Under the pieces are notes generated by a model, which worked only from the letters and a program-made list of their open reading frames with translations, did not search any database and was not told where the DNA came from. From a virus, in the IMG/VR virus record IMGVR_UViG_3300010391_000011, positions 1 through 32,126 of that record: a DNA stretch of 32,126 nt. One strand, 5' to 3'. The position numbers and the translations under genes were made by a program. Below, in pieces: positions 4,487-23,523 of the stretch (its first letter is position 1; each line of letters begins with the position of its first letter).

Positions 4487-4702
4487 ATGATTAAAAAAAC
4501 CCACACAAAATATATTGATGAGACGACCGGCATTACCGCCGAGTTCACCGCAGATGAAAAGATCACTTTAAGGACGAACAAAGGATCACGGGACTTTACT
4601 TTCCTAAACTCTAATAGAGAAACGGTAGAGTTGGTCTTGGAATCGATTAGAGCCCTTATCGACACCCACTTCCAAGAGGTTATGGATAACTCTAGCCGGT
4701 GA
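4487..4702 (+). CDS. Small hypothetical protein upstream of ninG
   Basis: 71 residues from ATG 4487, two bases after the previous stop. The first half is Thr-rich and likely beta (TGITAEFTADEKITLRTNKG), the second a helix (ETVELVLESIRALIDTHFQE). The stop overlaps the next start. No family recognised. Confidence 0.6.
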   Translation: MIKKTHTKYIDETTGITAEFTADEKITLRTNKGSRDFTFLNSNRETVELVLESIRALIDTHFQEVMDNSSR

Positions 4703-5106
4703 TGAAACGATCTCCGCTCCGTAAGAAAAGACCAGTATCGAAACAGACTCTTAGAAAGAGACTTCACCTAAAATTATGGAAAACCTTTAGTCAATATGTT
4801 AGAAAAAAATCAAAAGGCATTTGTTTCACCTGTGGAGCTAGAAAAGCATGGCAGGATATGGACGCTTCACATTACCTTCACGGAAAACTCGATTATAGCG
4901 AAATCAATATCCAAGCGTGTTGCGTCCGGTGCAATCGGTATCTACACGGCAATCTTGGGGCATTTGCTGAACGACTTGTTGGAGAATATGGCCAAGCTAG
5001 AATTACTAAACTACGACTCGAGGCCAGAGAAATCCAAAGGCACGAAATCGAATGGCTCCAAGAAAAAATCTCCTATTACGAAGAAGAGTTTAAAAAACTA
5101 GAATAA
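4702..5106 (+). CDS. ninG: NinG/Rap-family recombination nuclease
   Basis: 134 residues from ATG 4702 (a GTG one codon upstream is also open). The family hallmark is present: a basic N-terminus, LWKTFSQYVRKKSKGICFTCG with C41 and C44, then DASHYLHGKLDYSEINIQ and CVRCNRYLHGN with C74 and C77. NinG (Rap) of lambda-like phages is a Holliday-junction and branched-DNA endonuclease that biases recombination. The four Cys would bind zinc, with the His residues near the active site. The C-terminus is a long charged helix. The start overlaps the stop of the preceding gene (TGATG). Confidence 0.8.
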   Translation: MKRSPLRKKRPVSKQTLRKRLHLKLWKTFSQYVRKKSKGICFTCGARKAWQDMDASHYLHGKLDYSEINIQACCVRCNRYLHGNLGAFAERLVGEYGQARITKLRLEAREIQRHEIEWLQEKISYYEEEFKKLE

Positions 5107-5110
5107 TCAC

Positions 5111-5539
5111 TTGGAAAAAGAAAAGCTCCTCAATGCCCTAGAGACAATGCTCGAAGCTCCGAAAGAGGAGTTAGAAAGACTGCTTCGCTCTTTTATCCAA
5201 AGACTTAAAAGCTACGACGACCAGAGGACACCAAGTCAAAACAACGCCCTCCACCTTGGCCTGACGATGTTGGCCGAAGCCCTAAACGACGGTGGCAACG
5301 ATATGCGTAAGGTGCTAAAGCCCCACGTTCACATTGACTGGGACACCGACTCCGTAAAAAAGTACATGTTCAAGCCCATTTTAGAAGCTCGTTATGGAAA
5401 AGACAGCACTACTAAATTAAAGAAAATAGGCGAGATCGAGGTGGTTTGGGACACGATGATGAGGTACTTACTAGACCGGCCAGAACCTTGTATTCCTGAA
5501 TATCTACCTTTTCCTAATGACCCTCAAAAGGTAAAATAG
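5111..5539 (+). CDS. Phage recombination-associated protein (NinB/Orf-like pattern)
   Basis: 142 residues. The start is a TTG at 5111 four bases after the ninG stop; the next in-frame Met is at residue 13. The core has QRTPSQNNALHLGLTMLAEALN, then KVLKPHVHIDWDTDSVKKYM, KPILEARYGKDSTTKL and EYLPFPND. The QNNALH and final PFP signature resembles proteins encoded next to ninG in many phages and sometimes compared with NinB/Orf recombination mediators. The pairing with NinG supports a recombination role, but the homology claim is tentative. Confidence 0.5.
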   Translation: MEKEKLLNALETMLEAPKEELERLLRSFIQRLKSYDDQRTPSQNNALHLGLTMLAEALNDGGNDMRKVLKPHVHIDWDTDSVKKYMFKPILEARYGKDSTTKLKKIGEIEVVWDTMMRYLLDRPEPCIPEYLPFPNDPQKVK

Positions 5540-7608: not shown

Positions 7609-7643
7609 CCCCCCTCACAGGGAGAGGTAAATAATTAAAGGAT
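7609..7643 (+). repeat. Degenerate C-tract intergenic repeat, first copy
   Basis: CCCCCC followed by a diverged middle and an A/T-rich AAATAATTAAAG-type end before the next ATG (7644). It fits the array only in its two ends, so it is a weak member. Confidence 0.4.
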
Positions 7644-7763
7644 ATGAATATGAAAATAGAAAAAGAATGTGTAATATGCGGTCAAGAGGTCGAAACTTTT
7701 GGGTTAAAATCAACCGACTCGTCTCTTTGTTGGAGTTGCCGCCGAGATCAAGACAATGATTAA
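7644..7763 (+). CDS. Tiny zinc-ribbon protein
   Basis: 39 residues from ATG 7644, preceded by AAAGGAT, one of the few purine-rich candidate ribosome-binding sites outside the 12.4-kb region. CVIC and CWSC lie about 20 residues apart, giving a four-Cys zinc site. Not assigned to a family. Confidence 0.5.
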   Translation: MNMKIEKECVICGQEVETFGLKSTDSSLCWSCRRDQDND

Positions 7764-7777
7764 GAAATGGATAAATT

Positions 7778-7987
7778 ATGACAACACTTTACTTTAATCA
7801 GGGCGAAAATTTACCACAAAGAAAGGGCAAACAATTTACCACCAAAGAAGAGATGAAAACCAAACTATGTATATTATGCGGTTTGAGAAAATTAGCATTG
7901 TGGTCAGCTAAAAATATGTACAGAGATGTGGTCACGGGAGGTAAAGCCAAATTACCCCCCAGAGTCGATAACATTAAAAAGGAATAA
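7778..7987 (+). CDS. Small protein ending in repeat-encoded tail
   Basis: 69 residues. One CILCG pair lies in the middle. The last ten residues, PPRVDNIKKE, are the translation of a C-tract repeat copy, so the gene terminates inside the repeat unit. Not recognised. Confidence 0.5.
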   Translation: MTTLYFNQGENLPQRKGKQFTTKEEMKTKLCILCGLRKLALWSAKNMYRDVVTGGKAKLPPRVDNIKKE

Positions 7988-7998
7988 ATAAACAATAT
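7955..7998 (+). repeat. C-tract intergenic repeat copy
   Basis: CCCCCC, AGAGTCGATAACATTAAAAA, then GGAATAAATAAACAATAT before ATG 7999. The middle and end match the array consensus with a few substitutions. Confidence 0.7.
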
Positions 7999-8220
7999 AT
8001 GACAATTTACAAACACATAGCATACAATCCGCATATGCAGGGAATCCGAGCGGTAATTCAAGAGGCACAAGATAAAGGAAACTTAGAAGGAAGCCCAGAG
8101 TGGTGTTTTTTGAGAAGTCAGCCAGTGACAGAGTTTGAATGGGTCGCTATATTTGAAAGAGAAATGCCCGAATATGGTTTAGCAACTCTCACATCAGATA
8201 CTTTAACCCCCCCCAGATAA
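7999..8220 (+). CDS. Small protein, unknown function
   Basis: 73 residues. Aromatic and Glu-rich middle (WCFLRSQPVTEFEWVAIFER); the last residues, LTPPR, come from the following repeat. No motif recognised. Confidence 0.5.
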   Translation: MTIYKHIAYNPHMQGIRAVIQEAQDKGNLEGSPEWCFLRSQPVTEFEWVAIFEREMPEYGLATLTSDTLTPPR

Positions 8221-8231
8221 CCATTAAAAAG
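8207..8231 (+). repeat. C-tract intergenic repeat copy (short)
   Basis: CCCCCCCC then AGATAACCATTAAAAAG directly before ATG 8232. Lacks the usual AATAAATAAA tail, so it is a shortened copy. Confidence 0.65.
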
Positions 8232-8528
8232 ATGAAGAACCTAAAAACAATAAGAGAAGAATGGCACCAATACTGCCAAACCTTCAAATTAGGTACCGAA
8301 CATTTGGTTGTTGATTGGTGGCTCTCTAAACTCTCCCAACGAGACCAAGAGCTAAGGGGGAAGATAGAGGGGATGAAGATGCCCAGTAAACCAGACAAAG
8401 AAATACTCAGAACGGTAGATGGGGATAGGGAAGTAAAGGAGGAGTTCAAAGGTATACCAACCTTGTTCTACAACCAAGCCCTCACCGATGTCCTCTCCTT
8501 CCTAGATTTATCAGAGAATAAGGAATAA
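8232..8528 (+). CDS. Small charged protein, unknown function
   Basis: 98 residues. Trp-rich start (EEWHQYCQTFKLG, VVDWWLSKLSQRDQ), a charged central part and a helix near the end (NQALTDVLSFLDL). Cytoplasmic by composition. Lies in the repeat-linked array. Not recognised. Confidence 0.55.
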   Translation: MKNLKTIREEWHQYCQTFKLGTEHLVVDWWLSKLSQRDQELRGKIEGMKMPSKPDKEILRTVDGDREVKEEFKGIPTLFYNQALTDVLSFLDLSENKE

Positions 8529-8532
8529 ATAT

Positions 8533-8754
8533 ATGAAAAAAGTAACACCCCAAGAACTCTTATCATCTGCAGTCAAGGAATTACAGTTTGCCAATATGCA
8601 GGTTGAGTATCTTCTATCAGTACTAAACGAACTAGATACTTTCTGCGGAACCTTAGAAAAAGCAGTGATTAAGAATGCAAAAGAAAGACATCAGATTGAT
8701 AAACTTATCCACGCCAAGATATTATTTGGCTCACCCCCCAACATTAACAAGTAA
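8533..8754 (+). CDS. Small helical protein ending in the repeat
   Basis: 73 residues. One long amphipathic helix (LLSSAVKELQFANMQVEYLL), then a short basic segment. The final SPPNINK is read from the next repeat copy. It starts four bases after the preceding stop. Confidence 0.5.
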   Translation: MKKVTPQELLSSAVKELQFANMQVEYLLSVLNELDTFCGTLEKAVIKNAKERHQIDKLIHAKILFGSPPNINK

Positions 8755-8766
8755 TAAAGAGAATAT
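8734..8766 (+). repeat. C-tract intergenic repeat copy
   Basis: CCCCCC, then AACATTAACAAGTAATAAAG to ATG 8767. Shares ACATTAACAAGTAATAAA with the best copies. Confidence 0.75.
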
Positions 8767-8934
8767 ATGAAAAAAGAAATACTAAAAGCCATCAGAGTAG
8801 CAAAGAGAAGAAGAACGTGTATAGAGACACTAGGAAACGACCCATTGGCAAATAAAATTGCAATCGTAATGTTTGAGGAATTGGAACATACACACAAACT
8901 ATTACCCTATTACTTTGCTGTAAAGTCTATATAA
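8767..8934 (+). CDS. Small basic protein, unknown function
   Basis: 55 residues from ATG 8767. Very basic start (KKEILKAIRVAKRRRTC), then a helix (IAIVMFEELEHTHKLLPY). A DNA- or RNA-binding peptide is possible. Bounded on both sides by repeat copies. Confidence 0.5.
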   Translation: MKKEILKAIRVAKRRRTCIETLGNDPLANKIAIVMFEELEHTHKLLPYYFAVKSI

Positions 8935-8968
8935 CCCACCCACACATTAAAAAGTAATAAATAAAGAT
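8935..8968 (+). repeat. C-tract intergenic repeat copy (diverged)
   Basis: The C-run is broken to CCCACCCAC; CACATTAAAAAGTAATAAAT then follows to ATG 8969. The downstream part is well kept. Confidence 0.65.
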
Positions 8969-9232
8969 ATGAAAGAAGTAACAAAAACAGAGAAAACTTG
9001 GGATAAGGGTGAAAAAATATATGACGCATTTTGCGGAATGTTTAAGGGTTTCAAGGTATTAACACCTAGAACCACAACACTAGCACTTTTTGCCCTCCTA
9101 GAAGAAAGAAAAGAAAACGAACTTCTTTTAAGAGAGATGATGAAAGAGTTTGCAGAGAATTTAGATGACAGTTCTGTGTTTGCTGAAAAAGGAAAACTTT
9201 ATAAGAATGTGGTTTATAGAGAGAAGTTTTAA
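8969..9232 (+). CDS. Small protein, unknown function
   Basis: 87 residues. Helical middle (TTLALFALLEERKENELLLR) and an acidic region (DDSSVFAEKGKL). It lies between two repeat copies. Not recognised. Confidence 0.55.
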   Translation: MKEVTKTEKTWDKGEKIYDAFCGMFKGFKVLTPRTTTLALFALLEERKENELLLREMMKEFAENLDDSSVFAEKGKLYKNVVYREKF

Positions 9233-9263
9233 CCCCCCCACATTTACAAGTAACTAAATAAAG
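9233..9263 (+). repeat. C-tract intergenic repeat copy
   Basis: CCCCCCC, then ACATTTACAAGTAACTAAAT to ATG 9264. Confidence 0.75.
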
Positions 9264-9770
9264 ATGAAAATAGAACGCAAATGGGCTATGCCAAATAAGT
9301 GGACATTCACGATTAAACCGATTGCTGAACTATTGAAAGAGGAAGTTGTTGCCGGTGATTGGGCTGACCCATTCGCAGGTGAAAATAGCCCGGCATTATA
9401 CACAAACGACTTGCGAAAAAATATGCCGACCACTCACCACTTAGATGCGCTTGAGTTTCTAAAATCATTGGCAGATAATTCATTTGATGGGGTCTTGTTT
9501 GACCCTCCATACTCTATAACGCAGGCAAAACAATGCTATGAAGGTATGGGAATGGAATTACTAGAAGTCAAACCAACATCAATGAAATACTGGGGTGATT
9601 GTAAAACTGAAATTGCTAGGATATTAAAAAAGGGCGGTAAGGCAATTTGTTTTGGATGGACTTCAGTGGGAATTGGTATAAATAGAGGATTTGAGATGCA
9701 GAGAATACTACATGTGCCTCACGGCGGAAGCAAGAATGATACGATTGTAACAGTAGAAAGAAAGATATGA
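9264..9770 (+). CDS. Adenine-DNA-methyltransferase-like protein
   Basis: 168 residues. DPFAGE (35-40) fits the SAM-binding motif I, and LFDPPYS with DPPY at 80-83 is the catalytic motif IV of amino-methyltransferases. A helix and KKGGKAICFGWTS follow. It is short for the class and has no obvious target-recognition domain, as is common for orphan phage methyltransferases. Such enzymes add N6-methyladenine and protect phage DNA from restriction. Motif I precedes motif IV. Specificity cannot be read. One of three methyltransferase genes in this array. Confidence 0.7.
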   Translation: MKIERKWAMPNKWTFTIKPIAELLKEEVVAGDWADPFAGENSPALYTNDLRKNMPTTHHLDALEFLKSLADNSFDGVLFDPPYSITQAKQCYEGMGMELLEVKPTSMKYWGDCKTEIARILKKGGKAICFGWTSVGIGINRGFEMQRILHVPHGGSKNDTIVTVERKI

Positions 9771-9811
9771 CCCCCCCAGAGATAAACATTAACAAGTAAT
9801 AAATAAACGAT
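9771..9811 (+). repeat. C-tract intergenic repeat copy
   Basis: CCCCCCC directly after the TGA, then AGAGATAAACATTAACAAGT and AATAAATAAACGAT to ATG 9812. Close to the consensus. Confidence 0.85.
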
Positions 9812-10102
9812 ATGAAAGAAGAACTATTAAGTTGGTGTTTCAGATGTCATAGAAAGTTTGAAGAAATGGGCGAAGTTTTGAAATGGGGTAAGCATTATCC
9901 TGCTTGCCGAGTAAAACATATTGACGGAACAGAGGAAAACCTACCAGAGTCTATGGAAATAATTGAGGCAATTTGCAAAGATTGTATGGTGGAAGTTAAT
10001 CGTAAGAAATATGATGAAAGAAAATGTATCCGTTGTAACGATAATGGTTGCCCAAGTTGCGACGGCACAAAAGGAAGTAAATATAACCCAGAACCTTATT
10101 AA
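9812..10102 (+). CDS. Cys-rich zinc-binding protein
   Basis: 96 residues with about ten Cys/His ligand candidates: CFRC, a lone CRV, CKDC, and CIRC with CPSC at the end (CIRCNDNGCPSCDGTKG). The last group resembles the CxxCxGxG zinc modules of DnaJ-type proteins (CPSCDGTKG). Likely to bind two zinc ions. Substrate unknown. It stands between two methyltransferase genes. Confidence 0.55.
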   Translation: MKEELLSWCFRCHRKFEEMGEVLKWGKHYPACRVKHIDGTEENLPESMEIIEAICKDCMVEVNRKKYDERKCIRCNDNGCPSCDGTKGSKYNPEPY

Positions 10103-10143
10103 CCCCCCCCAGAGATAAACATTAACAAGTAATAAATAAAGAT
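10103..10143 (+). repeat. C-tract intergenic repeat copy
   Basis: CCCCCCCC after TAA, AGAGATAAACATTAACAAGT, AATAAATAAAGAT, then ATG 10144. Nearly identical to the copy at 9771. Confidence 0.85.
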
Positions 10144-10917
10144 ATGAAAGAAGAAGTAATCCAAGGAGACTGTTTAGAAGTAATGAAAGATATACCTGAT
10201 AAGAGTATTGCCCTGACCGTAACTTCTCCCCCATACGACAACCTCCGCACATACAATGGATTTACTTTTGACTTTGAGGGAATCGCAAAAGAATTGTATC
10301 GGGTAACAAAGCAAGGAGGAGTAGTAGTGTGGGTAGTAGCAGACCAGACTAATAATTTCTGTGAAAGTTTTACATCATTCAGACAAGCAATATTTTTCAA
10401 TCAAATTGGATTTAATCTTTTAGACACAATGATTTATCACAAGACGACAGTTCCACCAGCATATCCATCATTGAGAAGGTATGGAAATTGTTTTGAATAT
10501 ATGTTTGTTTTTTCCAAAGGTAGACCCAATACATTTAACGCTATTGAGGAAGATAAAATCCACGATACAAAGGAGTATCATTCTACTTATAGACAAAAAG
10601 ATGGCTCACTTAAACCAAGACATATAATTAAAACAGAAAACACTAAAAAGAAAATAACAAATATGTGGAGTTATGGAAGTGGCGGAAAATCAGAATTTAA
10701 TCACCCAGCAAAGTTCCCAGAAAAACTAGCAGAAGACCACATCCTCTCTTGGAGTAACGAAGGAGATACAATCCTAGACCCAATGGCAGGAAGTGGAACA
10801 ACATTAAAAATGGCTAAAAAGAACAATAGAAATTACATCGGAATAGAAATCTCACAGGAATACATAGACATTATCAACAAGAGACTAACCCCCCCCAGAG
10901 ATAACATTAACAAGTAA
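10144..10917 (+). CDS. DNA methyltransferase (N4-cytosine or N6-adenine), beta-class order
   Basis: 257 residues. The catalytic motif IV, TSPPYDN (27-33), comes first and the SAM-binding motif I, DPMAGSGTT (about 212-220), near the C-terminus: this is the beta-class order. The SPPY form of motif IV is typical of N4-cytosine methyltransferases but also occurs in N6-adenine enzymes. A middle target-recognition region lies between. No restriction endonuclease is adjacent, so it is probably an orphan anti-restriction or regulatory methylase. The final residues PPRDNINK are encoded by the following repeat. Confidence 0.85.
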   Translation: MKEEVIQGDCLEVMKDIPDKSIALTVTSPPYDNLRTYNGFTFDFEGIAKELYRVTKQGGVVVWVVADQTNNFCESFTSFRQAIFFNQIGFNLLDTMIYHKTTVPPAYPSLRRYGNCFEYMFVFSKGRPNTFNAIEEDKIHDTKEYHSTYRQKDGSLKPRHIIKTENTKKKITNMWSYGSGGKSEFNHPAKFPEKLAEDHILSWSNEGDTILDPMAGSGTTLKMAKKNNRNYIGIEISQEYIDIINKRLTPPRDNINK

Positions 10918-10928
10918 TAAATAAATAT
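10889..10928 (+). repeat. C-tract intergenic repeat copy
   Basis: CCCCCCCC, AGAGATAACATTAACAAGTA and ATAAATAAATAT to ATG 10929. It also encodes the C-terminus of the upstream methyltransferase. Confidence 0.85.
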
Positions 10929-11099
10929 ATGAAAACAATTAAACAAAATAAGAAAATAGATTTCTATGTGGAGCTTAAAGGAAATCGGCTTTACTTACTT
11001 TCGCCAGAATATAATAATATCAAGTTGAAAATTGACATAACACCAGTTTGGCATTTTGTGAAAGAAGTATTAAATCACCCTAAAAATGATGAAAGGTAA
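10929..11099 (+). CDS. Small protein, unknown function
   Basis: 56 residues from ATG 10929, overlapping the next gene by 14 bases. Basic start (TIKQNKKIDFYVELKGNR), then a beta-like segment and DITPVWHFVKEVLNHP. Not recognised. Confidence 0.5.
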   Translation: MKTIKQNKKIDFYVELKGNRLYLLSPEYNNIKLKIDITPVWHFVKEVLNHPKNDER

Positions 11100-11682
11100 A
11101 AACTTCTCAATGAATAATACTGGAAAAAGAAAGAAATCGGACTTTTATGAAACCCCATATTCTTTGACTCGCTTATTGCTTGAAAAGGAAAAGTTGGTTG
11201 GCGAAATACTTGAACCAGCAGTCGGAAATGGGGCGATAGGAAAAGTTTTGAATGAAAATCAGTATAGTTATATGGGTTACGATATTGAAAATGACTTCTT
11301 AAAACAGACCCAAAAATATGATACAATTATTACAAATCCCCCCTATTCATTATCTCAAGAGTTCATACTAAAAGCAAAAGAAAATGCCCGAAAAAAGATT
11401 ATATTTTTATTGCCACTATCTTATCTCCACGGCAAAAAACGCTATGACGAGATTTGGACAGATAAAGATTTTCCACTAGCAAGAGTCTATATCTTTACTC
11501 GCTACCCACTTTTAGGAGAAGAATTGCGACAAGACGGAAAACACAATACAGGAATGATGGTTTATGCGTGGTTTGTTTGGGAAAAGAATTATAAAGGTGA
11601 ACCAATAATAAAGTGGTTAGACAATAATGAATATATCATTAACCAACTTTACCCCCCAGAGATAACATTAACAAGTAACTAA
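11086..11682 (+). CDS. N6-adenine DNA methyltransferase-like protein
   Basis: 198 residues. Residues 20-30 (FYETPYSLTRL) precede motif I EPAVGNG (43-49) and the catalytic NPPY (84-87) in TNPPYSLSQ, in gamma/alpha-like order. NPPY is characteristic of N6-adenine methyltransferases. Compact, with a short C-terminal region in place of a target-recognition domain. The tail PPEITLTSN is the same repeat sequence as in the 10144 gene, but read in another frame. Two adjacent Met codons give alternative starts. Confidence 0.8.
   Translation: MMKGKNFSMNNTGKRKKSDFYETPYSLTRLLLEKEKLVGEILEPAVGNGAIGKVLNENQYSYMGYDIENDFLKQTQKYDTIITNPPYSLSQEFILKAKENARKKIIFLLPLSYLHGKKRYDEIWTDKDFPLARVYIFTRYPLLGEELRQDGKHNTGMMVYAWFVWEKNYKGEPIIKWLDNNEYIINQLYPPEITLTSN
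11652..11680 (+). repeat. C-tract intergenic repeat copy, last of the array
   Basis: CCCCCC, AGAGATAACATTAACAAGTA, then ACT. It encodes the end of the methyltransferase, and the 40-bp direct repeat begins at once at 11681. Confidence 0.8.
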
Positions 11683-11720
11683 AGGTCTTGAGACCTTGAC
11701 GGCTTTGATTTATAATAAAG
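11681..11720 (+). repeat. 40-bp direct repeat, copy 1
   Basis: Identical to 12349-12388 over 40 bp, with weaker similarity continuing about 20 bp further. It contains AAGGTCTTGAGACCTT, a palindrome. In frame it encodes KGLETLTALIYNKVR and a stop, that is, the end of the P63C-type gene at 12148-12396 without the rest. Thus it is a 3' gene remnant left next to the methyltransferase. Confidence 0.85.
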
Positions 11721-11734
11721 TAAGATAGTGGTTC

Positions 11735-12130
11735 TTTAAGCAGAGAGATTAAGTCCCGCCTCATTATGTGCGTAGCAGAGAGCGGTGGTAACATCGGCCT
11801 TAGCCGTGGGATAATACTGGGGAGGCAGTCTAGGCGCAGTACCCAGCTAAAGATCACGGGCGAAGATTGAGTTCGAGTTTGGCCAACGACTACGCTCTCG
11901 CTACTTAGAGAATCACTGATAGTTCTTTGTTACATGAGGTTGGTCGAAATAAGCACTGGTTGGATTCTGCCGAATAATCAATAAGGCGGGCCAGGATCAT
12001 TTGTTTGGTTCTTAGCATAAAAAATCCCGCGAGTGCTTGTCTAGGCCAATCTCTAAAAGAATGAGGGTTGAGTGGGGCGACGGCGTGGCTGTTTCTAGCT
12101 AGAACAGTGTCTGTCTCCAATCACTCTAGG
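11735..12130 (+). ncRNA. Large structured RNA candidate, about 400 nt
   Basis: No convincing gene lies in 11736-12147. Helices seen: GCCTC (11758-11762) with GAGGC (11822-11826), continued by ATTAT (11763-11767) with ATAAT (11811-11815) across a 6-nt bulge; hairpin CGGC-CTTA-GCCG (11795-11806); AAGCACT (11951-11957) with AGTGCTT (12032-12038), enclosing GCGGG (11986-11990) with CCCGC (12026-12030); and a hairpin at 12089-12107 with an AGCT loop. The multi-domain layout recalls large ornate phage RNAs, but no known class was recognised. No promoter or terminator was clearly seen, so ends are approximate. Confidence 0.5.
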
Positions 12131-12147
12131 GAACGGAAGCCGTAGGC

Positions 12148-12396
12148 TTGAAGGCCGAGATAATCCCTAAAATATGTGATATTTGGGTGAAAGCGCTTTC
12201 TGACGGAAAATTGACCGAAAATCAACGAAAGGTGGCTGAACAAAGCCGTATTTTGCTTGGCGCTTTTGCAGAGATTGGTATCACGGCTTTAATTGATGAA
12301 GCTACCGGCTACCAAAAGGACTTGATGTCAAGGGATAGTTACCTTTATAAAGGTCTTGAGACCTTGACGGCTTTGATTTATAATAAAGGTAGATAG
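12148..12396 (+). pseudogene. Truncated P63C-domain protein gene
   Basis: The frame opens after TAG 12127-12129; the only start is TTG 12148. The product (82 residues) has AEIIPKICDIWVKALSDGKL, then LTENQRKVAEQSRILLGAF and IALIDEATGYQ-like sequence (ITALIDEATGYQKDL), the hallmark of the P63C domain found in phage and CPR proteins. P63C proteins normally have a longer N-terminus and continue well past the EATGYQ motif; here both are missing. The 3' end is copy 2 of the 40-bp repeat. It looks like a gene cut down by recombination, though a minimal expressed form cannot be excluded. Confidence 0.6.
12349..12388 (+). repeat. 40-bp direct repeat, copy 2
   Basis: Identical to 11681-11720, 668 bp downstream. 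Encodes the last residues of the truncated P63C gene (KGLETLTALIYNKGR). Confidence 0.85.
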
Positions 12397-12420
12397 TTCT
12401 TTCAAAGAAAGGAGATCGCC

Positions 12421-13600: not shown

Positions 13601-15133
13601 ATGTCTAATCGTTTCAAAATTGCTAAGACTGGCGTAGAGGCAAGAGAAGGTCTGATAAAAGGTGCTAATTTTCTAGCTGACTGCGTTGGCTCTACTTTGG
13701 GGCCTTTTGGCCAGAACTGGTTTTTAGAAAAAGATGGTGGCCGAGTAACTAATGATGGTGTAACTGTCGCTAAGGATTTGATGTGTCGGGACGAAATACA
13801 AAATCAAGGACTTAGGGCTTTGAGAGAAGCGGCAGTCAAAACAAACGATCAGGTCGGCGACGGTACAACTTCCGCCATTGTCTTGGCCCAAGCCATCCTC
13901 AAAGAAGCCACTAGTGCTCTAGGTAATGGCAAGTCTTTTATCACTAAAATTACTCCCAGCGAGTTAATCAAAAAATTGAATAAAGAATTGGCGGAAGTGC
14001 TTGTAAAACTAAAAGAAATTTCTCTACCGATAAAAACTAAAGAGGAGTTGGTTGCTTCCGCTTTAGTGGCGGTGGAAAATGAGGAATTGGCGAAGATGAT
14101 CGGTGAAACCCAGTGGGAACTCGGCCCACAAGGATTTATTCTCTGTGATGAAACAGCAGAAAGAGAAAGTAAAATCGAGCGGATCAAGGGGGTGAGAATT
14201 GATAATGGTTTTGGCACTTCCTTGATGATGAATAACTTTGAAAAGCAGACATTGGAGGTGAACGATACCCAGATTATTTTGACTAGCCATGTTTGCCAGA
14301 CACTTTTGCCTTTCAAAAAAACAGGTGAACAGTTAGCGAAGATGGGTAAGAGAAAATTGGTTATCCTCGCTCGCGCTTTCAATGAACAAGCGATCAGAGA
14401 CGCAATGGAAAATCACAAAGTCGGTTTTCAAATTTACCCCATCAATGCCCCGTATACCGATATGAACGAAGTTTTTAAGGATTTATCGGCCGTGACAGGT
14501 GCGACATTCTTTGCCTCGGAAAACTCTGATTTGAACGATCTCAATGTTTTGGATGTTGGTTTCGCCGGCCGAGTAGTATCGGGACGCTATGACGCGATCA
14601 TTACTGGATTGGACGATGAAAAGTCAAAAGAACGGATCACCCTTCGTCTCAAAGAGTTAGAAGACCAACTCAAAGGAGAGAAATCAGAGTTTATGAAGAA
14701 TAATCTCGTGAGTCGGATTTCCCAATTGACGAATGGCTTCGCCTCTTTGAAAATCGGGGCGCAATCGGATGTAGAGCGTAAACGACTAAAAGACAAATCA
14801 GACGATGCGGTGAATGCCGTAAGGGCGGCTTTGCAAGAAGGAGTGGTCAAGGGGGCGGGTCTCGCTTTCAAAGAGATTGCTGATGGGTTACCAGAGGATT
14901 CTTTACTGAAAAGACCACTGTGTTCAATCTACGAGCAGATAATGTCTACTGCTCCGGCGGACTGGTCGGTGCCGGAATGGGTAAAAGATCCAACTAAAGT
15001 TCTAAGAATTGCTTTGGAGAATGCGGTGTCAGTAGCGGGGGCGTTGGCTACGGCAGGTGGGGTGACGGCAATGGAAAGGGACAAACCGCGTCTGGTCGAG
15101 GAAGTTAAAACAGAGGATGATGAAGATAAATAA
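13601..15133 (+). CDS. groEL: Phage-encoded GroEL (Cpn60) chaperonin
   Basis: 510 residues. The chaperonin ATP-site motifs are present: TLGPFGQN (32-39), NDGVTVAKD (51-59, Asp 52), GDGTT (86-90, Asp 87), and the C-terminal DDAVNAVRAA (401-410, Asp 402, matching the hydrolytic Asp 398 of E. coli) with GVVKGAG (414-420). Group I chaperonins fold proteins in an ATP-driven double ring. The protein is divergent and shorter than the 545-residue norm, and it lacks the C-terminal GGM repeat, ending in EDDEDK. No GroES gene was found nearby. It opens the virion operon, so help in folding capsid proteins is likely. Other phages are known to carry such GroELs, some acting without GroES. Confidence 0.95.
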   Translation: MSNRFKIAKTGVEAREGLIKGANFLADCVGSTLGPFGQNWFLEKDGGRVTNDGVTVAKDLMCRDEIQNQGLRALREAAVKTNDQVGDGTTSAIVLAQAILKEATSALGNGKSFITKITPSELIKKLNKELAEVLVKLKEISLPIKTKEELVASALVAVENEELAKMIGETQWELGPQGFILCDETAERESKIERIKGVRIDNGFGTSLMMNNFEKQTLEVNDTQIILTSHVCQTLLPFKKTGEQLAKMGKRKLVILARAFNEQAIRDAMENHKVGFQIYPINAPYTDMNEVFKDLSAVTGATFFASENSDLNDLNVLDVGFAGRVVSGRYDAIITGLDDEKSKERITLRLKELEDQLKGEKSEFMKNNLVSRISQLTNGFASLKIGAQSDVERKRLKDKSDDAVNAVRAALQEGVVKGAGLAFKEIADGLPEDSLLKRPLCSIYEQIMSTAPADWSVPEWVKDPTKVLRIALENAVSVAGALATAGGVTAMERDKPRLVEEVKTEDDEDK

Positions 15134-22854: not shown

Positions 22855-23451
22855 ATGAACAATAAATTAAGTATCGGAATTGGAGTGGTTGCGTTGATTT
22901 TAGCAATCTCTTCGTTCTTTGTTACCAAAACCATAGTTAGGGAAGTCACCAGTTTAGCTGGAATTACCAACTATGACAGTTTGACTTTAGGTGAGAATTT
23001 GATTGTCGGAGGAACGGCGGCCATTACTGGCGCGACGACCCAAACTGGCACCTTAACCGTGGATGGCGGATTACTGAAAAGCAAGACCATCGCCACGTCG
23101 TCAACAGCGACCACGCAGACACTGGTGCAAGCAGACCTGTTGAATTACAACACGGTTCTGTTTAACCCCGGCACAATATCAATTGCCATGACGCTTCCGG
23201 CGACCTCCACCCTGACCACCCTCGTTCCAACGGCGGGTGATATGGCAGAGCAATGCTGGTATAACGCCACCTCAAGCACTGCTTCGGTGGGGCAAATTGT
23301 TTGGGCGGCAGGAACGGGCATTGACTTAATGGCCTCCTCAACCCCGAACAGTATTACCCAACGGCCGGGACAGTGGGGTTGCTTCACGTTTGTGCGGCAA
23401 ACCGATACCGATATTTCCGCTCTCTACTCCGACTTCCAGAACGCAGATTAG
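22855..23451 (+). CDS. Signal-anchored virion-operon protein, Ser/Thr-rich
   Basis: 198 residues. A hydrophobic N-terminal helix (LSIGIGVVALILAISSFFV) would act as a signal or anchor. The rest is Thr/Ser/Ala-rich and beta-like (TGATTQTGTLTVDGGL), with two Cys near the end (QCWYN, WGCFTF). The stop TAG at 23449 is the first codon of a 15-bp tandem repeat. Coat, fibre or head-surface protein. Confidence 0.6.
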   Translation: MNNKLSIGIGVVALILAISSFFVTKTIVREVTSLAGITNYDSLTLGENLIVGGTAAITGATTQTGTLTVDGGLLKSKTIATSSTATTQTLVQADLLNYNTVLFNPGTISIAMTLPATSTLTTLVPTAGDMAEQCWYNATSSTASVGQIVWAAGTGIDLMASSTPNSITQRPGQWGCFTFVRQTDTDISALYSDFQNAD

Positions 23452-23523
23452 TAATTCTCCTTCTAGTAATTCTCCTTCTAGTAATTCTCCTTCTAGTAAT
23501 TCTCCTTCTAGTAATTCTCCTTC
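23449..23523 (+). repeat. 15-bp tandem repeat, five perfect copies
   Basis: TAGTAATTCTCCTTC five times. In the frame of the upstream gene each unit starts with TAG TAA; in the +1 frame it reads SNSPS. Each unit has CTCCTT, which resembles the anti-SD. Confidence 0.95.

Follow-up and report, generated by a model that had tools for sequence, protein, structure and literature searches.

A repeated C-tract element as a candidate stop-and-restart linker for accessory genes in a viral genome

In the window (the whole 32,126-nucleotide stretch analyzed, IMG/VR record IMGVR_UViG_3300010391_000011, from an uncultured phage), a C-tract element recurs nine times at gene junctions from 7.9 to 11.7 kb, always in the same orientation. 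On balance, we lean toward reading this element as a portable stop-and-restart linker for accessory genes, which would be spread by homologous recombination. Eight of the C-runs listed in an initial annotation of the sequence were found as listed (7955, 8207, 8734, 9233, 9771, 10103, 10889, and 11652); the one at 8935 is also an element copy but reads CCCACCC, not unbroken C. None of the nine copies falls in the virion operon, in agreement with that annotation. It had counted about ten adjacent genes, whereas the array holds about 12 small ORFs and includes junctions without a C-tract copy (8528/8533, with only the AATAAATATATG half; 7765/7778; 11099/11086). Linkers are 25 to 44 nt long and span the upstream gene end to the next gene start. 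Copies from 7955 to 10889 do end at the next ATG, as first described, but the copy at 11652 has no gene start behind it. The features of the array, and one gene upstream of it, are as follows.

4699..5106, plus strand: NinG (the Rap recombination protein of lambda), encoded some 2.5 kb before the array
7609..7643, plus strand: sister (hairpin-type) junction, CCCCCCTCACAGGGAGAGGTAAATAATTAAAGGAT before ATG 7644, no CATTAACAAG core
7955..7998, plus strand: copy 1; ORF 7778-7987 terminates within; next ATG 7999
8207..8231, plus strand: copy 2, shortened (C8-AGATAACCATTAAAAAG); ORF 7999-8220 terminates within; next ATG 8232
8508..8532, plus strand: junction with the A-rich 3' half only (GGAATAAATAT before ATG 8533), no C-tract
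8734..8766, plus strand: copy 3; ORF 8533-8754 terminates within; next ATG 8767
8935..8968, plus strand: copy 4, CCCACCC variant, immediately 3' of stop TAA; next ATG 8969
9233..9263, plus strand: copy 5, immediately 3' of stop TAA; next ATG 9264
9264..9770, plus strand: probable adenine-specific DNA methyltransferase, DPPYS motif; relative in G017 (48%)
9771..9811, plus strand: copy 6, full length, immediately 3' of stop TGA; next ATG 9812
10103..10143, plus strand: copy 7, full length, immediately 3' of stop TAA; next ATG 10144
10144..10917, plus strand: N6_N4 DNA methyltransferase; relatives in G018 and G022, likewise joined to the element
10889..10928, plus strand: copy 8, full length; methyltransferase 10144-10917 terminates within (TPPRDNINK); next ATG 10929
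11086..11682, plus strand: probable Dam-like N6-adenine methyltransferase, NPPYS
11652..11682, plus strand: copy 9, 5' two thirds only; ORF 11086-11682 terminates within (PPEITLTSN); 50-nt direct repeat follows

Searched with up to 3 mismatches, ACATTAACAAGTAATAAATAAA occurred six times on the plus strand of the window, never on the minus strand, and never in 20 first-order Markov simulations. A near-identical 21-mer gave six matches in the window (copies inside one genome are not independent samples) and its reversed pattern none. A profile of the element, built partly from the window copies, recognized eight of the nine junctions at E < 1e-4, while the junction at 8207 matched it weakly (E = 7.8). 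Only the copies at 9771, 10103, and 10889 have the full CCCCCC-AGAGATAA(A)CATTAACAAG-TAATAAATAAA form; AGAGATA is missing from the copies at 8734, 8935, and 9233, TAATAAATAAA is missing from that at 8207, and the copy at 11652 enters the direct repeat at 11680. CCCC directly follows a stop three times in the window (0.3 expected from internal positions), four times in contig G023 (0.15 expected), and four times in G010 (0.1 expected).

In an alignment of window and external copies, the most conserved columns were the C5 tract, CATT, and TAAATAAA. The initial annotation had asked which part of the repeat is conserved; conservation covers the C-tract, CATTAA core, and A-rich leader. Stops in all three frames occur in six of eight window copies, compared with 9% of composition-matched shuffles. 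A Shine-Dalgarno sequence (SD) is absent upstream of all eight element genes; since just 3 of the 34 other window genes have one, its absence does not distinguish the element. Predicted structure around the start was weaker for element genes (median MFE of -1.1 versus -7.0 kcal/mol for other genes; P = 1.7e-4), a difference partly due to A/T-rich composition, and weak structure is a documented trend for non-SD genes (PMC5397173). The element DNA is read in different frames, as PPRDNINK in one gene and PPEITLTSN in another, as first noted; selection for a protein tag was therefore rejected. Rfam gave no match to the element at gathering scores. The C-tract has no evident role in initiation.

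In the stop-and-restart reading, the linker starts at or just behind the upstream gene end, often right after the stop codon, with five to eight C. AGAGATAACATTAACAAG and the following bases then provide stops in all three frames, so that almost any upstream end would be closed even if its own stop had been lost. From there, an A-rich, SD-free leader (TAATAAATAAAGAT), predicted to be unstructured, runs up to the next ATG, behind which codons 2 to 4 also tend to be A-rich (AAAGAAGAA). With such closure and such a leader, each copy should permit independent translation of any accessory gene in an SD-less system. Being common to numerous junctions and to different phages, the linker would also supply homology at gene borders, and genes could be inserted, exchanged, or deleted between copies. 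We infer that the linker promotes SD-less initiation and that recombination uses it, presumably carried out by NinG/RecT/RecA-type functions.

About 12 other contigs (G001 to G005 and G016 to G022) carry this element, usually in one or two copies each, and the flanking proteins in these carriers are mutually unrelated except for one methyltransferase family. Its copies lie in many independent metagenomes between different genes, and an assembly artefact was therefore ruled out. The initial annotation had proposed looking for varied gene order in related contigs, and neighbors and gene order do vary; it had counted one copy per genome, or a constant gene order with a single copy, as contrary evidence, and most other carriers do have only one or two copies, but gene order and neighbors are not kept. 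Full-length matches were absent from named phages and plasmids. A scan of 257 Gb of prokaryote genomes with CCCCAGAGATAA(N)CATTA returned 20 hits, about the chance level for 17 to 18 bases by our estimate. Only one of these, in a Nitrosotalea MAG (L049), continues as the element, and its contig is probably a mis-binned phage contig; a host origin of the element is thus unsupported. Relatives of the terminase carried no exact element copy, and one of them (G012) has two eroded copies.

Of the three methyltransferases recognized initially, the one at 10144-10917 is firmly assigned (N6_N4_Mtase, E = 3.8e-46), and those at 11086 (Dam, E = 1.4e-4) and 9264 (a weak methyltransferase match, 1e-4 in NCBIfam) are probable. 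The upstream neighbor of the shared methyltransferase family differs among the window, G018, and G022, and the upstream gene end in G022 matches that in G019. The first 68 nt of the G018 and G023 methyltransferases are 97% identical while their middle is unalignable, and G023 and G019 share 83% over 116 nt just 5' of the C-tract. Homologs without the element start with MINTVIQGDC or MNKVIHGDC, not MKEEVIQGDC. Judged from these alignments, the methyltransferases are chimeric at their linker-touching ends; such ends could also come from crossovers within conserved methyltransferase motifs in which the linker plays no part. Two linkers are fused with no gene between them in G023, G003, and G004/G005. 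The carriers combine joints in different ways and reuse the linker between unrelated genes and phages. Two proposals of the initial annotation fit together here and gain support: a shared start leader for SD-less mRNAs, given the missing SDs and open start regions, and a modular junction for shuffling, given the unrelated neighbors elsewhere, combinatorial joints, chimeric ends, and gene-less tandems. Its third, an RNA processing or pausing site, was neither borne out nor eliminated.

The strongest rival, although we think it rather unlikely, gives the element a regulatory role only: it would be a start-associated site for a phage or host factor, or a translation enhancer, kept before co-regulated genes with no shuffling involved. 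Its fixed place before the ATG, single orientation, and restriction to the early accessory region would suit such a role, and the two closest precedents are so interpreted by their authors. The claim that no element of this kind had been described was too strong, because the Start-Associated Sequences (SAS) of cluster K mycobacteriophages and the TAACTGA repeats of marine Beggiatoaceae are of the same general kind. SAS is a 13-nt sequence (GGGATAGGAGCCC) confined to one phage cluster and containing an SD-like GGAG; its suspected role is in translation, and at a subset of sites it is accompanied by ESAS, 17-bp imperfect inverted repeats that keep the gene association (PMC3203893). Like our element, it is a short, repeated, asymmetric sequence in (nearly) one orientation immediately 5' of the starts of unrelated phage genes, and the upstream stop can fall inside it (PMC3203893). 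In contrast, our element is 25 to 44 nt long, lacks an SD, fills the whole stop-to-start gap, has a C-tract and sister families, and is reused across phages; GGGATAGGAGCCC is absent from its consensus, and the alignment holds no ESAS-like inverted repeat, the window copies tested folding at a predicted 0 kcal/mol. The TAACTGA direct repeats are tandem 7-mers in bacterial chromosomes; like our element they are intergenic and forward-oriented, occur in distant lineages, lie just 5' of SD-less starts, and give three-frame stops, whereas ours are single-copy 40-nt phage linkers with a C-tract, and the portion of that report available describes no gene-cassette shuffling (PMC4679880). Tandem TAACTGA heptamers were absent from the aligned element copies. 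Against a purely regulatory role, the element begins at the upstream gene's end and changes that end, and its neighbors are combinatorial, gene ends chimeric, and some tandem linkers gene-less.

Those last three observations would suit a boundary sequence that persists only as homology for module exchange, with no role in expression, an account to which we assign a low probability. Boundary-sequence recombination is a recognized cause of phage mosaicism (PMC6466182), and in lambdoid phages sequence shared at module borders is the substrate of relaxed homologous recombination (PMC6466182, PMC3945230); here too, shared sequence was found at the ends of seemingly exchanged modules. However, one sequence serves many junctions per genome and is part of a stop-to-start architecture, unlike lambdoid boundary sequences. 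The leader also looks built for initiation (SD-free, unstructured, and A-rich into codons 2 to 4), three-frame stops are present, and sister families have a different middle sequence within an unchanged layout, all of which argue against recombination as the only role.

These sister families, seen in three phages, share a layout of stop, C-tract, variable middle, A-rich leader, and ATG; those of G010 and G019 had no match outside their own contigs. The site at 7609 (CCCCCCTCACAGGGAGAGG), initially called a degenerate copy, is better read as a hairpin-type sister because the core is absent and the sequence is predicted to form a hairpin (-7.8 kcal/mol, no better than for shuffles). A short hairpin directly 3' of the stop is present there and in the G023 and G019 families. 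RNase III sites between T7 genes are a precedent for one mRNA per gene, and in an RNA processing or transcription element the C-tract or sister hairpin might similarly mark a 3' end or cleavage site, followed by an A/U-rich leader. We regard this as improbable, since the window copies tested have a predicted MFE of 0 kcal/mol, the sister hairpins do not clearly outdo shuffles, scanning for sigma-70-like and terminator-like sites showed nothing at the copies, and promoter-like sites barely exceed shuffles (19 versus 14.2; standard deviation, 3.1). A tiny MITE-like mobile element inserting behind T(A/T)A at gene ends is very hard to credit: the C-tract does follow TAA, TTA, TGA, or TAG at almost every site, including sites that are out of frame or behind a second linker, but 20 aligned copies have neither terminal inverted repeats nor a target-site duplication, orientation relative to genes is single, the end at the ATG is exact, no transposase was identified, and just one prokaryote-genome hit goes beyond chance.

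In integron gene-cassette arrays, small accessory genes are each joined by a repeated short attC element. The stop-and-restart linker differs in having no inverted-repeat fold and in ending at the next ATG, and no integron integrase was recognized among the window proteins searched (a subset of ORFs). As a more speculative and doubtful extension, several C-tract families could form a dedicated linker system, a shared currency of recombination at a hotspot that in many carriers lies upstream of groEL, where an integrase-free array would give each cassette a frame-proof stop and an SD-less start.

New here are the C-tract, the sister families, and the cross-lineage shuffling. Phage mosaicism is pervasive, but short borders that act both as homology for recombination and as an expression signal are seldom observed directly; here one linker, complete with stop, leader, and start, joins different genes from phage to phage, and chimeric ends and gene-less joints accompany it. 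If the linker acts as proposed, phages with SD-less systems could take up or exchange accessory genes (DNA methyltransferases, for example) with no need to adapt each one to its neighbors, and the linker could be used to search for arrays of accessory genes that change fast. The NinG gene upstream of the array is a possible helper of such recombination. NinG (Rap) is common to this window and the setting of lambdoid boundary recombination, where orf and rap (ninG) play a part in the mosaicism of lambda (PMC3945230). Against this, NinG was above the cut-off in the window and G003 only, and RecT was found in G002 only.

A total of nine copies of the C-tract element were located at gene ends between positions 7955 and 11682 of the window, all on the plus strand and at the junctions listed in the initial annotation, and none was found in the window's virion operon, as that annotation had also noted. 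Eight of the nine end at an ATG; the exception is the last copy (11652), which runs out into a 50-nt direct repeat with no gene start there. At 7609, the gene junction proposed earlier was upheld but the degenerate copy was not, and folding suggests instead a hairpin-type sister of the element. Allowing ≤3 mismatches, the core was matched at six sites on the plus strand and none on the minus strand, compared to none in 20 simulations. A profile of the element gave E<1e-4 at eight junctions and a weak match at the ninth, 8207. The copies at 9771, 10103, and 10889 have the full form, while the remainder are shortened.

Alignment of the nine window copies with 11 outside copies gave a layout of C5-8, AGAGATAA(A)CATTAACAAG, TAATAAATAAA, 2 to 4 bases, and ATG. 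The C-tract and CATT were near-invariant across 19 copies and TAAATAAA was strongly conserved, so that conservation extends to both parts, C-tract and core, between which the first reading had left the choice. An upstream stop (TAA, TGA, or TAG) abuts the C-tract in eight distinct copies; in most others, the upstream open reading frame (ORF) enters the element in any of the three frames and terminates within it. Stops in all frames were present in six of eight window copies versus 9% of composition-matched shuffles. CCCC immediately 3′ of a stop was far above random-position expectation in the window, G010, and G023 (the latter two carrying sister families) and absent from three terminase relatives. 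No Shine-Dalgarno sequence precedes the element genes, and such sequences are also scarce elsewhere in the window (3 of 34 other genes). Predicted start-region structure was near nil for element genes (median, −1.1 versus −7.0 kcal/mol for other genes; P = 1.7e-4), in part because of composition.

IMG/VR scans placed the element in G001 to G005 and G016 to G021, and it is also carried by G022, a short Nitrosotalea MAG contig; each carrier has one or two copies. INPHARED and PLSDB had no full-length match. Since the collection scans used exact patterns, diverged copies are under-counted. All carriers are uncultured fragments whose copies are not independent of each other; G004 and G005, with identical junctions, are probably close relatives. 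Sister families share the layout with a different middle:

G010: middle CCCCCCTCAAAGGAGTATAATTAAGGAAATATGAAAGAAGAA, three copies
G019: middles CCCCCCTCCTCAAAGGAGCTTAATTGAAAATATATG and CCCCCCAGCCCTTTAATCGCTGAATAAATAAATATATG, alongside one window-family copy
G023: CCCTCCCCAGCAATA(AA), short G-run, AGATTAGTAACTAATATAAAGATATG, six copies

The 3′ part of the G023 family resembles that of the window family. Pairing of the C-tract with a G-run is possible in the hairpin families, with folds not clearly better than shuffles; the window family has no pairing partner for its C-tract. A different start-associated repeat, ATTAAGATAAAAGAATAAATATATGA, lies at about five gene starts in G017 (L063, 6575-9261), without a C-tract.

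Proteins downstream of the element are mutually unrelated, save one methyltransferase family (window, G018, and G022), which has three different upstream neighbors, that in G018 being a tRNA-like stretch (judged by eye). For window genes lying between copies, relatives in the other records are confined to those of the methyltransferases and of the gene at 10929. The gene end upstream of the G022 linker matches that of G019. The first 68 nt of the G018 and G023 methyltransferases agree at 97%, beyond which the two are different enzymes, and the 116 nt leading to the C-tract are 83% identical between G023 and G019:

L138 3001-3720 (G023): chimeric methyltransferase, start as in G018, last part like G019, middle unrelated

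Element-free homologues have different starts and ends. G023, G003, and G004/G005 have a pair of linkers joined directly, without an intervening gene. Such joints and chimeric ends are the pattern that would be expected from recombination at gene borders; no crossovers were observed within the linker. NinG (Rap) is encoded in the window, ~2.5 kb upstream of the array, and other carriers encode NinG (G003), RecT and YqaJ (G002), or RecA (G005). The window's NinG gene is followed by an ORF that is NinB (Orf)-like by eye, with no Pfam match (4699-5539 together).

The anatomy, the reuse, and the chimeric joints are shown by the data; as one reading, they are best explained by a portable stop-and-restart linker that would act in expression and also provide homology for recombination. 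The closest known kinds are Start-Associated Sequences (PMC3203893) and TAACTGA repeats (PMC4679880); sequence excludes the element from both, making it a variant of that general kind rather than a member of either.

GroEL is the sole protein that several carriers have in common with the window, and many share no virion protein with it within the carrier sequence examined. The element lies 0.5 to 2.7 kb upstream of groEL in the window, G016, G018, G021, and G012 (copies eroded in G012); G020 is an exception. The window's phage-encoded GroEL-like chaperonin (13601-15133) is directly upstream of the terminase, and groEL relatives are present in about ten related contigs.

The 50-nt direct repeat (11680-11729 and 12348-12397; 96%) contains an 11/12 sigma-70-like site, TTGAGA-17-TATAAT. 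The noncoding stretch between its copies (11730-12150) has a predicted fold of −147 kcal/mol, well below that of shuffles (z −3.6), and had no credible Rfam match; the region 11680-12397 thus holds a candidate promoter-driven structured RNA. A long noncoding stretch likewise lies 3′ of the last linker in G019 (L065, 7640-8540). Elsewhere in the window, a tandem 15-nt repeat, TAGTAATTCTCCTTC (23449-23523), begins at the stop of ORF 22855-23451; an overlapping ORF translates it as NSPSS repeats.
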